Assembly (NCBI GenBank): GCA_014762505.1 | Contig: JABURS010000035.1 | Location: forward strand, 62,001 to 126,000 | DNA from: Chromatiales bacterium | GTDB lineage: Bacteria; Pseudomonadota; Gammaproteobacteria; SpSt-1174 | Direction: 5' to 3' | Length of the DNA: 64,000 nucleotides | Shown here: piece by piece, positions 1,072 through 24,370 of the stretch | Position numbering within the stretch: the first letter of the stretch is position 1 | Layout: each line of letters begins with the position of its first letter | Notes under the pieces: generated by a model | Databases searched by the model: none | Told to the model about the DNA's origin: nothing | What the model saw: the letters and a program-made list of their open reading frames with translations, nothing else | Program-made: the position numbers and the translations under genes

Positions 1072-1839
1072 TTATAACTGGAAAACGTCGCCGCTGCGCA
1101 GGCGGTGCAGCTCCCGGTCGGGAACGGCGGACGTAACCTGGGTCATGATGCGGTCCTCGTCACCGGACTTGAGATGGGTGATACAGGTCTGCGGATGGTG
1201 CCGCAGCTTGGCGAGGTCCGCGGCCAGGGTCTCGGGGCAATAGTGGCCGGCGATGTCGCTGAGTGCGCGTTCCTCGTTGGCGAAGGCGCATTCGACGATG
1301 AGCATGTCCAGCTGGGATTTGCGGTTCAGCGCGTCCCAGAGGCTGTCGTTGGTGGTGGTATCCCCGCTGAAGGCCAACACCGAGTCGCCGCCCTTCACGC
1401 AATAGCCCACGGCCGGGACGGCGTGATTCACCGGGATCATCTCCAGGGTCCGGCCGTCGATCACCACCGGCTCCCCCGGCGACATGGGGGCAAAGCGCAC
1501 CACCGGGTGCTCGCGATCCGGCAACTCGAAGAAGTCCGGCCAGATCTTCCAGTTGAAGATGTGCGCGCGCAGCACCTCGATGCTCTCGGGCTGGGCGTGC
1601 ACGGTCAACGGCCGCCCCTGCAGCTGGCCGAACAGGGTATCGATGAGCAGGGGCAGGGTCGCGATGTGATCGAGATGGGTATGCGTGATGAAGACGTGAC
1701 GCAGGCGCGCCATGGCCTCCAGGCTGAGCCGCCCCACCCCGGTTCCACAATCGATGAGGATATCGTCGTCGATCAGCAGCGAGGTCGTTCCCGACCCATC
1801 CCCGATTCCGCCGCTGCAGCCCAGTACCGTCAGCCGCAT
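1072..1839 (-). CDS. MBL-fold metallohydrolase, class II cAMP phosphodiesterase-like
   Basis: This 255-residue cytoplasmic protein has the metallo-beta-lactamase fold. The zinc motif HTHLDHI is at residues 53-59, a further metal-ligand region (FSGDTTTND) is near 158, and a late THLKSG histidine completes the site. The start MRLTVLGCSGG and the overall layout resemble the class II 3',5'-cyclic nucleotide phosphodiesterase group (PF02112), so hydrolysis of a cyclic nucleotide is a plausible role. Other phosphodiester or thioester substrates of the superfamily cannot be ruled out. It sits between ffh and a divergent ypjD-like gene, a position that is usually empty in gammaproteobacteria, so it looks like a local insertion. 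Confidence 0.8.
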   Translation of the reverse strand: MRLTVLGCSGGIGDGSGTTSLLIDDDILIDCGTGVGRLSLEAMARLRHVFITHTHLDHIATLPLLIDTLFGQLQGRPLTVHAQPESIEVLRAHIFNWKIWPDFFELPDREHPVVRFAPMSPGEPVVIDGRTLEMIPVNHAVPAVGYCVKGGDSVLAFSGDTTTNDSLWDALNRKSQLDMLIVECAFANEERALSDIAGHYCPETLAADLAKLRHHPQTCITHLKSGDEDRIMTQVTSAVPDRELHRLRSGDVFQL

Positions 1840-2012: not shown

Positions 2013-2819
2013 ATGATCATCGCTCTCAGCCTGCTTGCCATTGCCCTCTATCTGGCCGCCACCGGGGCCATCGGACTACGCGTGCGGGCATTGGCCACCG
2101 GTCACGGGGCCATCCCGCGCGAACTCGTGCTGCTGGCCTGGGGGGGCGCCGTGTTGCTGCATGCCATCGTCGCCTATCGCGAGGTGCTCACCCCCGCCGG
2201 ACTCGACCTGGGCTTTTATCACGCCCTGTCCTCCGTCAGCTGGCTGATGGTTGCGCTGCTGCTGCTGGCCAGCCTGAAACGCCCGGTGGAAAACATCGGC
2301 CTGCTGCTGCTGCCGCTGGCGGTGGTCGCGCTGCTGCTGGAGATGCTGTTACCCGACGTGCGCTTCATTCCGGCCTCCACACGCCCCGGCCTCGACATCC
2401 ACATCTTCCTCTCGCTGCTGGCCTACAGCATGCTCGGCCTGGCCGCGCTGCAGGCGATGGTGCTCTGGTTCCAGGACCGCCACCTGCACACGCACCGCCC
2501 GGGCGGCCTGCTGCGCGCCCTGCCCCCCCTGCAGCACATGGAGAGCCTGCTGTTCCAGCTGCTCGGCGTCGGCTTCGTGCTGCTCAGCGCCGGCCTGATC
2601 ACGGGCTTCGTCTATCTCGAAGACATCTTCGCCCAGCACCAGGTCCACAAGACCGTGCTGTCGATCGTGGCCTGGGGCCTGTTCGCCACCCTGCTGTTCG
2701 GTCGCTGGCGCTTCGGCTGGCGCGGCCGCAAGGCCATACGCTGGACCCTGGGCGGCTTCGCCTTCCTCATGCTGGCCTACTTCGGCAGCAAGCTGGTGAT
2801 CGAACTCATCCTGCGCTGA
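2013..2819 (+). CDS. CcsA/YpjD-like inner membrane protein (cytochrome c assembly family)
   Basis: This 268-residue polytopic membrane protein belongs to the CcsA/CcmC-related family (PF01578). It is mostly hydrophobic, with about eight predicted segments. A longer in-frame reading begins near 1869, but the ATG at 2013 (MIIALSLLAIALYLAATGA) begins directly with a transmembrane helix and fits the family. Homologues next to ffh (ypjD in E. coli) have no proven biochemical role; haem handling is suggested by the family only. The downstream CorC-like gene follows after 84 bp, repeating the ypjD-yfjD order of enterobacteria. Function is inferred from family and context. Confidence 0.85.
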   Translation: MIIALSLLAIALYLAATGAIGLRVRALATGHGAIPRELVLLAWGGAVLLHAIVAYREVLTPAGLDLGFYHALSSVSWLMVALLLLASLKRPVENIGLLLLPLAVVALLLEMLLPDVRFIPASTRPGLDIHIFLSLLAYSMLGLAALQAMVLWFQDRHLHTHRPGGLLRALPPLQHMESLLFQLLGVGFVLLSAGLITGFVYLEDIFAQHQVHKTVLSIVAWGLFATLLFGRWRFGWRGRKAIRWTLGGFAFLMLAYFGSKLVIELILR

Positions 2820-21080: not shown

Positions 21081-21127
21081 TTGACATTTGTTCGCGCGGC
21101 CATAAAGATGCGCAACACATACATGTT
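21081..21127 (+). promoter_or_regulatory. norS promoter with NsrR-like operator
   Basis: TTGACA (21081-21086) is followed after 16 bp by a weak -10, TAAAGA (21103-21108). Overlapping the -10 is AAGATGC, nine bases, then ACATGTT (21105-21127). This has the 7-9-7 geometry of the NsrR operator (AAGATGC-N9-GCATCTT), with the left half exact and the right half differing at two positions. NsrR is the nitric-oxide-sensing repressor, which suits the gene it precedes. Computational match only, done by eye. Confidence 0.6.
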
Positions 21128-21146: not shown

Positions 21147-21674
21147 ATGGAACAAACGCTGGCCTGGTATCTGTCCCTGCTGTTCATCGGCCTGGTGGCG
21201 GCAGTCTTCCTCTGGGTGCGCCTCCATTCGCGCGAAGCGGCCGAGTTCGCGCCCATCCGCGATCGGGCCTATCGCCTGCGTCCGCACCTGTTCTGGGCGC
21301 TGGTCGTGGTCGGCATCCCGGTCATGGTGGTGACGCTCATGATGACCCCCTACGAGAGCGCACAGGGCCTGCCGGATGACGCGCTGCACGTCGACGTGCA
21401 GGGCCAGCAGTTCGCCTGGACCCTGAGCGAGACCGGCGCCCGCGCCGGACAGACCGTGGTCTTCAACGTGACCAGTGCCGACGTGAACCATGGCTTCGGC
21501 ATCTACGACGCCGACATGCGCCTGGTGGCACAGACGCAGGCCATGCCCGGTTACAGCAACCGCCTGGTCCACGTCTTCGAGAAACCCGGCAGCTATCGCA
21601 TCCTCTGCCTCGAATACTGCGGCATGGCCCATCACGTGATGGAAGCCCGCTTCGAGATCACCGAAGCGCGCTGA
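21147..21674 (+). CDS. norS: CuA-containing subunit of a heme-copper enzyme (sNOR subunit NorS-like)
   Basis: This 175-residue membrane-anchored cupredoxin has two transmembrane helices (about 7-26 and 48-68) and a periplasmic CuA domain. The CuA ligands His115, Cys154, Glu156, Cys158, His162 and Met165 are complete, in DVNHGF and CLEYCGMAHHVM. Family-wise this is cytochrome oxidase subunit II. Its pairing with a catalytic subunit that lacks the oxidase tyrosine, and with senC and a small membrane gene, matches NorS of the norSY-senC-orf1 type nitric oxide reductase. The start at 21147 has an AAGGAG site. The alternative is a ba3-like oxidase subunit. Confidence 0.8.
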   Translation: MEQTLAWYLSLLFIGLVAAVFLWVRLHSREAAEFAPIRDRAYRLRPHLFWALVVVGIPVMVVTLMMTPYESAQGLPDDALHVDVQGQQFAWTLSETGARAGQTVVFNVTSADVNHGFGIYDADMRLVAQTQAMPGYSNRLVHVFEKPGSYRILCLEYCGMAHHVMEARFEITEAR

Positions 21675-21705
21675 GCGCTCCGACCGGAATAAAGGGAGAA
21701 GAACA

Positions 21706-23142
21706 ATGACTGATTCGACGATGACCCAGACACGACCGCACACCGGCGTGCTGGCCTATCTCGTGGTAGCCGGCGTCGTCATCCTGCTGATGATGCTGCT
21801 CGGCCTGCTGATGCGCCTGGACCAGGCCACCGCCCTGGATCTCGGCCTGGCCGGCTTCTACCGGGTGATGACCGCCCATGGCGCCGGCATGGTCGGCATC
21901 ATGGCCCTGGGCGGCGCCGCCGTGATGTGGCACTTCCTCTCGCGCCACGTGCAGCTGTCGGGCGCCATCCTCTACATCAACCTGCTGCTGTTCCTGGTGG
22001 GCGCAGTGATGGTGCTGGGTAGCGTGTTCATCGGCGGCTATGCCGGCGCCTGGACCTTCCTCTACCCGCTGCCGGCGCAGGCCGCAGGGGCCTGGTCGCC
22101 ACACGCCGCCGCCGTGTTCACCGGTGGCCTGCTCGCCATCGGCACCGGTTTCCTGCTGCTGCACCTGGATACGGCCCGCGCCATCATCCAGCGCTACGGC
22201 AGCCTCCCGCGCGCGCTGGGCTGGCCGCAGCTCTTTGGTGGCGACAGCAGCGAACCGCCGCCGGCCGCGGTGGTGGCCAGCACCATGGTCCTCATCGTCA
22301 ACATCCTGGGCATTACCGCCGGTGCCGCCATCCTGGTGATGACGCTCGTGAATCTCTATGTGCCGGCCTTCGACATCGACCCCCTGCTGGCGAAGAACCT
22401 GATCTATTTCTTCGGCCACGTCTTCATCAACGCCACCATCTACATGGCGGTGATCGGCGTCTACGAGATACTTCCCGTGTACACCAAACGGCCGTGGAAG
22501 GTGAATCGCGTGTTCCTCGCCGCCTGGACCGCCTCCACCATCATGGTCATCATCGTCTATCCGCATCATCTGCTGATGGACTTCGCCATGCCGACCTGGA
22601 TGCTGGCCATGGGTCAGATCATCTCCTACACCAGCGGCCTGCCGGTGCTGGTCGTCACCGCCTATGGCGCCCTGCTGCTGGTGCACCGTTCCGGCATCCA
22701 GTGGAACACCGCCGCCAGCCTGCTGTTCCTGTCCGTGTTCGGCTGGGCGGCCGGCGTCATCCCCGCCATCATCGACGCCGTCATCCCGGTGAACACCGTG
22801 ATGCACAACACCCTGTGGGTGCCCGGTCACTTCCACTTCTACCTGCTGCTGGGCGTGGCCGCGATGGTCCTCGGTTTCATGTATCACCTGCGCGCAGCCA
22901 ATCATCATGATGGCGTGCTGGACCGCGCCGCCTTCTGGGCCTACATGATCGGTGCCCTGGGCTTTGTCATGAGCTTTCTCTACAGCGGCAACCAGAGCGT
23001 GCCGCGCCGCTACGCCGACCACGCCCCGCAATGGGTGGCCTATGACCAGATCGCCTCGGCCTTTGCCATCCTGGTGGTCGCGGCCATGGCCGTGTTCCTG
23101 CTGCGCTTCCTCACCGGCCTGCGGCCCCGCGCCGCCCGCTGA
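21706..23142 (+). CDS. norY: heme-copper catalytic subunit, sNOR-type nitric oxide reductase (NorY-like)
   Basis: This 478-residue, about 12-helix subunit has every haem and copper ligand: low-spin haem His58 (TAHGAGM) and His377, high-spin haem His375 (GHFHFYLL), and CuB ligands His238, His287 and His288 (GHVFIN, YPHHLLMD). Oxygen reductases of the A and B families have a Tyr four residues after the first CuB His; here it is Asn242. Loss of that Tyr together with a CuA partner and the senC-orf1 neighbours is what is described for sNOR, which reduces NO to N2O with electrons from cytochrome c. Oxygen reduction cannot be excluded from sequence. Confidence 0.78.
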   Translation: MTDSTMTQTRPHTGVLAYLVVAGVVILLMMLLGLLMRLDQATALDLGLAGFYRVMTAHGAGMVGIMALGGAAVMWHFLSRHVQLSGAILYINLLLFLVGAVMVLGSVFIGGYAGAWTFLYPLPAQAAGAWSPHAAAVFTGGLLAIGTGFLLLHLDTARAIIQRYGSLPRALGWPQLFGGDSSEPPPAAVVASTMVLIVNILGITAGAAILVMTLVNLYVPAFDIDPLLAKNLIYFFGHVFINATIYMAVIGVYEILPVYTKRPWKVNRVFLAAWTASTIMVIIVYPHHLLMDFAMPTWMLAMGQIISYTSGLPVLVVTAYGALLLVHRSGIQWNTAASLLFLSVFGWAAGVIPAIIDAVIPVNTVMHNTLWVPGHFHFYLLLGVAAMVLGFMYHLRAANHHDGVLDRAAFWAYMIGALGFVMSFLYSGNQSVPRRYADHAPQWVAYDQIASAFAILVVAAMAVFLLRFLTGLRPRAAR

Positions 23143-23741
23143 TGCGCACCCTGCTGTCCCTGCTGCTGATCGCCAGCCTGGGTAGCACCGTGCTCTACCA
23201 GGCCACGGACGGCCTGCGGGCACTGACTAGCGAAGGCGCCCGGCGGGTGGCCGTCACCGACGCGGCTCGACCGGTGCCGGATGTCATCCTGCAGGACCAG
23301 CACGGCGACCGTTTCTCCCTGGCCGAACTCCAGGGGCAGGCCCTGGTGATCAACTTCATCTACACGCGCTGCCCCACGGTGTGCCTGGCCCTGGGCGATG
23401 CCCTGCAGCAATTGCAGCGCGCCCTGCCGGCCGGAGGTCCGGGCGGGGACGTGCTGCTGCTGAGCATCAGCTTCGACCCGGCCAACGATACGCCGGCGCG
23501 TCTGGCGGCCTATGCCGAGTGGTTTCGTGCCGGTGAGGGCTGGCGGGTGACGCGCCCCCTGAACGAGGCGGACCTGGAACTCCTGCTCGAGCGGTTCGGC
23601 GTGGTGGTGATCCCGGACGGGCGCGGCGGTTTCGAGCACAACGCCGCACTGCACCTGGTCGACCGCGAGGGACGGCTGGTAGCGATCCGGGATCTCGATG
23701 ACGTCGAGGGGGTACGCCGCTGGCTGGGTGAGGCCTCATGA
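23142..23741 (+). CDS. senC: SCO1/SenC family copper chaperone
   Basis: This 199-residue thioredoxin-fold protein is anchored by an N-terminal hydrophobic segment (residues 3-18) and faces the periplasm. The copper-binding motif is Cys77-Pro-Thr-Val-Cys81, with a His in FEHNAALH (166 or 171) as third ligand. SCO proteins deliver or reduce copper at CuA sites, so the expected client is the CuA subunit two genes upstream. The start codon overlaps the catalytic-subunit stop, showing tight coupling. A senC gene at this place is part of the norSY-senC-orf1 pattern. Confidence 0.92.
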   Translation: MRTLLSLLLIASLGSTVLYQATDGLRALTSEGARRVAVTDAARPVPDVILQDQHGDRFSLAELQGQALVINFIYTRCPTVCLALGDALQQLQRALPAGGPGGDVLLLSISFDPANDTPARLAAYAEWFRAGEGWRVTRPLNEADLELLLERFGVVVIPDGRGGFEHNAALHLVDREGRLVAIRDLDDVEGVRRWLGEAS

Positions 23742-24370
23742 GACACGCAACGCGGTCCGGTCTGGCCGGCATTGCGCTGATCGTGATCCTCGCCCCGCCG
23801 TGGATGCGCGCACTGCTGGAGTCGGGCATGGCGGGCCACATGCTGCTGCAGATCCCGCTGCTGGTACTGGCCGGCATCCTGCTGGCCGGTTTCGTGCCCG
23901 ACCGCTGGCGTGCGCGCCTGGCCGACTGCAATGCCTACGGCCTCAGCGGCCTGCTGCTGGCGCTGCTCACACTGGGCTACTGGATGCTGCCGCGCAGCCT
24001 CGACCTCGCCCTGGAATCCGGCTGGGCGGAGCTGCTGAAGTTCACCACGCTGCCGCTGCTCGCCGGTCTGCCGCTGGCACTCAGCTGGCGACCGCTGGGC
24101 ATGATCGGGCGCGGCGTCGTGTGGAGCGAACTCGTCGCCAAGCTCGCCGTGCTCGGCTGGCTGTATCTCGAGGCCCCGGTACGGGTATGCACGCGCTACC
24201 TCGTCGCCGACCAGGAACAGGTGGGACAGGCCCTGCTCGTCATCGCCCTGCTGCTGGCCGTGGTGCTCACCCTGCGGGCCTTTCTGTTCGACCATGGCCG
24301 CAGCGGGGAACCCGCAGAGGAAGAGGCCGGTCCCCGGGAACGGAAGGCACCGGCGGCACATGTCGTGTAG
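23738..24370 (+). CDS. small polytopic membrane protein of the sNOR-like operon (orf1)
   Basis: This 210-residue hydrophobic protein has about six predicted helices, starting with an overlap of 4 bp on senC. The segment SGMAGHMLLQIPLLVLAG recalls the H-M-x-x-Q region of the caa3 assembly factor CtaG, but the similarity is short and I do not claim homology. The C-terminal 25 residues are charged and cytoplasmic-like. Its place as the fourth gene is where orf1 lies in described sNOR clusters, so a role in assembly or copper loading is the best guess. Function unproven. Confidence 0.72.
   Translation: MRHATRSGLAGIALIVILAPPWMRALLESGMAGHMLLQIPLLVLAGILLAGFVPDRWRARLADCNAYGLSGLLLALLTLGYWMLPRSLDLALESGWAELLKFTTLPLLAGLPLALSWRPLGMIGRGVVWSELVAKLAVLGWLYLEAPVRVCTRYLVADQEQVGQALLVIALLLAVVLTLRAFLFDHGRSGEPAEEEAGPRERKAPAAHVV

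Follow-up and report, generated by a model that had tools for sequence, protein, structure and literature searches.

The closest described systems are the sNOR of ammonia oxidizers, whose published gene order is norSY-senC-orf1 (PMC3764937) and which corresponds to coxB2A2 of Nitrosomonas, and the bNOR of Bacillus azotoformans (formerly qCuANOR). The latter is a purified NO reductase in which the active-site tyrosine is changed to asparagine, and a shorter type II qCuANOR, with two N-terminal helices in subunit II, has also been described (PMC3475470). NO reduction by sNOR is a proposal (PMC11388526), and the literature searched contained no biochemical demonstration of NO reduction by any sNOR. 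In Nitrosomonas europaea, sNOR transcription rose 2.7- to 10.8-fold under O2 limitation, and a possible O2 reductase role was suggested (PMC6967387). Whether NO or O2 is the substrate of sNOR is a disputed question, on which the operator evidence presented here bears. The published consensus of NsrR is gATGyAT-N5-ATrCATc (PMC1274295), and nsrR is listed beside norSY-senC in Nitrosococcus oceani (PMC3772326).

Organization and subunits of the operon

The window analyzed is a 64-kb stretch of DNA from a Thioalkalivibrio-affiliated gammaproteobacterium that resembles sulfur oxidizers; a MAG named Thioalkalivibrio sp. SpSt-1174 belongs to the same genus as this host. Examination of the open reading frames (ORFs) of the window revealed four intact, coupled genes on the plus strand at positions 21147 to 24370, in agreement with the sequence-only reading, which had described a CuA subunit, a catalytic subunit, an SCO chaperone, and a small membrane protein. 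The first gene, norS (21147 to 21674), encodes a subunit II that carries CuA; its N-terminal part contains two hydrophobic stretches, a feature shared with type II qCuANOR. It is followed by norY (21706 to 23142), assigned by Pfam COX1 and by phylogeny as the heme-copper catalytic subunit (478 aa), by senC (23142 to 23741), encoding an SCO1/SenC copper chaperone, and by orf1 (23738 to 24370), which encodes a polytopic membrane protein distantly related to DUF1404 and conserved in the operon. The gap between norS and norY is 31 bp, whereas norY and senC overlap by 1 base and senC and orf1 by 4 bases, a pattern expected of one transcript. An NsrR-like operator, AAGATGCGCAACACATACATGTT (21105 to 21127, no strand assigned), lies 19 bp upstream of the start codon of norS. 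The operon is interpreted, with a probability of about 0.8, as a norSY-senC-orf1 operon for an sNOR, a heme-copper superfamily nitric oxide reductase that contains CuA, the activity being predicted from sequence. This family is known and its four-gene order has already been published; the operon is a further member of it, and the operator evidence is the new part.

NorS matched Pfam COX2 above the cut-off (E = 7e-6) and CoxB with an E value of 2e-20, yet under the NCBI cut-off; all NCBI curated oxidase models were under their cut-offs for both NorS and NorY. The full set of CuA ligands noticed at the outset is present (H115, C154, E156, C158, H162, and M165), with 99 to 100% conservation among 79 NorS sequences. 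SenC matched Pfam SCO1-SenC (E = 2e-16) and has the motif C77-x3-C81 together with H166, all three residues being invariant in 76 sequences. No Pfam family was assigned to the Orf1 of the window; DUF1404 was matched by 13 of 47 Orf1 members (best E value, 4e-6) and not by the copy in the window. Invariant residues of Orf1 include R149, C151, and Q159, and its model (pLDDT, 91.7) matched none of the solved folds searched. A role in assembly or as an additional subunit is probable for Orf1.

Phylogeny and annotation of NorY

NorY shares pairwise identities of 61 to 66% with the NorY proteins of Nitrosospira and Nitrosovibrio. In a 63-row tree of the heme-copper superfamily, it joined these ammonia-oxidizer proteins in a single 34-row clade with a support of 100/100. 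This clade excludes the A, B, and C oxygen reductases, cNOR, qNOR, and the bNOR-like and eNOR-like groups, the last two of which were named from motif alone, and no B oxygen reductase fell inside it. The placement that the sequence-only reading had named as supporting its proposal, with NorY and outside the B-family oxygen reductases, was thus recovered. At a deeper level, a topology in which sNOR groups with the B, bNOR-like, and eNOR-like rows was not rejected (AU test, p = 0.43). One row labeled B in advance (L156) was placed among the A enzymes, and its label was taken as wrong.

The expectation that such a locus would be annotated as a cytochrome oxidase also proved correct: NorY relatives are called "cbb3-type cytochrome c oxidase subunit I" in RefSeq, and those in the plasmid collection carry the same annotation. 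Annotation places this operon and those related to it among the cytochrome oxidases (COX1 or "cbb3-type"), so that the N2O-forming potential of such bacteria would be undercounted.

Active site of NorY

NorY matched Pfam COX1 (E = 1e-49), and the best fold matches of its model (pLDDT, 87.5) are cytochrome oxidase subunit I proteins. The ligands comprise H58 and H377 of the low-spin heme, H375 of the active heme, and H238, H287, and H288 of CuB. The surroundings of the active site were judged from alignment, in which N242, four residues after H238 (H+4), occupies the position of the cross-linked tyrosine in the A and B oxidases. Asparagine stands at H+4 in every readable member of 98 NorY relatives. 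The aligned position is tyrosine in three B oxidases and aa3, glutamine in the eNOR-like group, asparagine in the bNOR-like protein L183, and glutamate in cNOR and qNOR. The C-family oxygen reductases use a helix VII tyrosine instead, placed six residues N-terminal to the HH pair; the corresponding residue of NorY is V281, at least 90% conserved. The missing active-site tyrosine inferred at first is therefore borne out, with Asn242 in its place and no substitute of the C-family type. Two other tyrosines, Y246 and Y253, are also invariant, and Y253, which aligns with the K-path tyrosine at H+15 common to the B oxidases, may belong to a proton path.

The relationship to known enzymes can be described further. 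The operon resembles the ammonia-oxidizer sNOR in gene order, CuA subunit, replacement of tyrosine by asparagine, and the high identity of the catalytic subunit, and it differs in its host and in the presence of an NsrR-like operator. Bacillus azotoformans bNOR likewise has a CuA subunit II, asparagine in place of tyrosine, and SenC and a membrane protein in its cluster; however, the bNOR-like L183, assigned by motif, falls into a different clade beside the B oxidases and has 565 residues, compared with 478 in NorY. The B-family (ba3) oxygen reductases share with NorY the HNTxW motif, the acidic residue after the CuB histidines, and the K-path tyrosine, but they keep the cross-linked tyrosine and form a separate clade. 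A polar residue replaces this tyrosine in the eNOR-like group as well, although there it is glutamine, and this group, whose name comes from motif only, is also a separate clade. Unlike cNOR and qNOR, whose clade is separate, NorY lacks the active-site glutamates of NorB, the columns of which are occupied by asparagine and tyrosine.

These features bear on whether the enzyme could be a B-family-related terminal oxidase of high affinity, for which O2 would be the substrate under low oxygen and NO a side substrate. Such an enzyme would fit the O2 role that was proposed when the N. europaea sNOR was found to be induced under O2 limitation (PMC6967387), the deep placement beside B-family enzymes allowed by the AU test, and the HNTxW motif and Y253 that NorY has in common with the B oxidases. 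It is nevertheless improbable, given that the cross-linked tyrosine is asparagine in all readable relatives, that the C-family position is a conserved valine, that the sNOR clade holds no B oxygen reductase, that aa3 and two cbb3 oxidases are already encoded in the genome, and that the operators described below indicate NO rather than O2.

NsrR-like operator

AAGATGCGCAACACATACATGTT agrees with the full-length NsrR motif at 16 of 22 positions, and none of 1,000 shuffles was as good. A pattern derived from it had one match in the 64 kb of the window (0 expected) and a single exact match in the 2.77-Mb genome, with eight other sites at two mismatches. Compared with the published consensus (PMC1274295), the site shows two mismatches in the left half-site and one at the outermost base on the right; the inner right half-site, ATACAT, agrees fully. 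Sites matching at least 16 of 22 positions were found before 24 of 82 related operons (approximately 30%), whereas in the same 82 upstream regions the reversed motif gave 0 and 20 scrambled palindromes gave at most 5. In addition, the sites co-occur with a nearby Rrf2-family gene (18 of 25 operons versus 6 of 57; p = 6e-8, a generous value since the 82 loci are related by descent). No good NsrR-like operator was detected in the Nitrosospira and Nitrosovibrio sNOR operons scanned.

The genome encodes an NsrR homolog on another contig. With 158.6 bits against a curated cut-off of 182, it scores under the threshold, NsrR being its best match among the Rrf2 models, and it is 54% identical to the Rrf2 protein adjoining the operon in genome G021.

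The site could also be a chance palindrome or the operator of another Rrf2 regulator, with the operon under O2 or copper control. The two mismatches in the left half-site are compatible with this, as are the failure of a simple scan to find a promoter at the site and the fact that the gene context is known for one of the eight two-mismatch sites in the genome. This explanation is unlikely, however, in view of the shuffling result, the recurrence of the sites and their Rrf2 association over 82 operons, and the position of nsrR beside norSY-senC in Nitrosococcus oceani (PMC3772326). Comparative genomics thus lends support to the NsrR-like operator that had been proposed from the window. The operators and their Rrf2 link constitute comparative evidence, independent of the active-site residues, and they favor an NO role for sNOR.

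The two-mismatch site with known context (G000:C43:158678-158700) lies in locus L006 and is flanked by a hemerythrin/DUF2249 gene and a small COX1-like gene, the flanking genes being at 1390 to 1788 (minus strand) and 2027 to 2731 (plus strand); this neighborhood was taken as further support for the sNOR reading. The product of the COX1-like gene, a 132-aa membrane protein, matched only a COX1 fragment (positions 346 to 400), under the cut-off.

Genome context and proposed function

Besides the aa3 and two cbb3 oxidases, the genome carries norCBQD (cNOR). Neither NirS nor NirK was found in this genome, which is rated 100% complete; the controls of the NirS search were positive. The sole NirK match, far under the cut-off, is CopA and was rejected. 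A search for AmoA-type monooxygenases gave no match in the genome and none in the control genomes either.

The same reaction could serve respiratory denitrification, in which NO produced by the cell's own nitrite reductase would be reduced for energy. The coexistence of cNOR and sNOR would be consistent with that role, but the lack of detectable NirS and NirK makes it doubtful. The presence of an NsrR homolog and cNOR without detected NirS or NirK renders NO removal likelier than denitrification, and the operon would accordingly draw electrons from the cytochrome c pool to remove NO. Against an NO reductase role stand the induction of the N. europaea sNOR under O2 limitation (PMC6967387), the lack of the NorB glutamates, the cNOR already present, the undetected NirS and NirK, and the occurrence of the operator before only about 30% of the operons and not before those of the ammonia oxidizers scanned.

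In the proposed mechanism of NO reduction, a periplasmic cytochrome c (or cupredoxin) would deliver electrons to the CuA center of NorS, which SenC would load with copper. The electrons would then pass to the low-spin heme of NorY (H58 and H377) and on to the heme-CuB center (H375; H238, H287, and H288), where two NO molecules would be converted to N2O. With the cross-linked tyrosine absent, the usual fourth electron for O2 splitting would be missing. NsrR, an NO sensor, would bind the operator and repress the operon, and NO would lift the repression. As a tentative generalization, with less than an even chance of being right, sNOR outside the ammonia oxidizers may be an NsrR-controlled system for respiratory NO removal in bacteria without NO production by NirS or NirK, and Orf1 may be a subunit or assembly factor dedicated to it.

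Distribution and synteny

The distribution of sNOR is patchy. Among near relatives, 2 of 93 genera have it; it was also found in 13 of 369 genomes of a class-level sample and in 6 of 399 of a phylum-level sample, and 397 candidate sNOR stretches were retrieved from the species-level collection. No relative was found in viral contigs. The norSY-senC-orf1 order, recognized in the window as that of the ammonia oxidizers, matches the published one (PMC3764937). It is shared by 75 of the 80 named loci, including those of Nitrosospira, Alkalibacillus, and a Thermomicrobiales bacterium; it also occurs on a megaplasmid of Ruegeria pomeroyi.

In G002, a genome of the same family, the flanking genes have the same order and the operon is missing. 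ORFs of 378 and 172 aa occupy its slot, which is bounded by phoH and the AI-2E transporter gene, and this indicates a gain or loss of the operon at that place. Within this slot (L210, 2692 to 4371), the 378-aa ORF appears by eye to begin with a signal-peptide-like stretch, and the 172-aa ORF resembles a macro-domain protein.

Some variation was observed among the related loci. In L054, L064, and L066, norS, norY, and orf1 are present, and an SCO gene was not detected between norY and orf1. A 35% identical relative in genome G149 (L019) has the CuA motif and asparagine at H+4; it lies outside the main sNOR clade, where it pairs with the Thermomicrobium roseum protein (98/88). In L155 (4339 to 8133), the locus of the Thermomicrobium roseum relative (approximately 37% identity), genes for a CtaG-type assembly protein and a formate/nitrite transporter take the place of the SCO gene and orf1. 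A formate/nitrite transporter-like gene also lies near the operon in 30 of the 80 named loci (L025 to L104).
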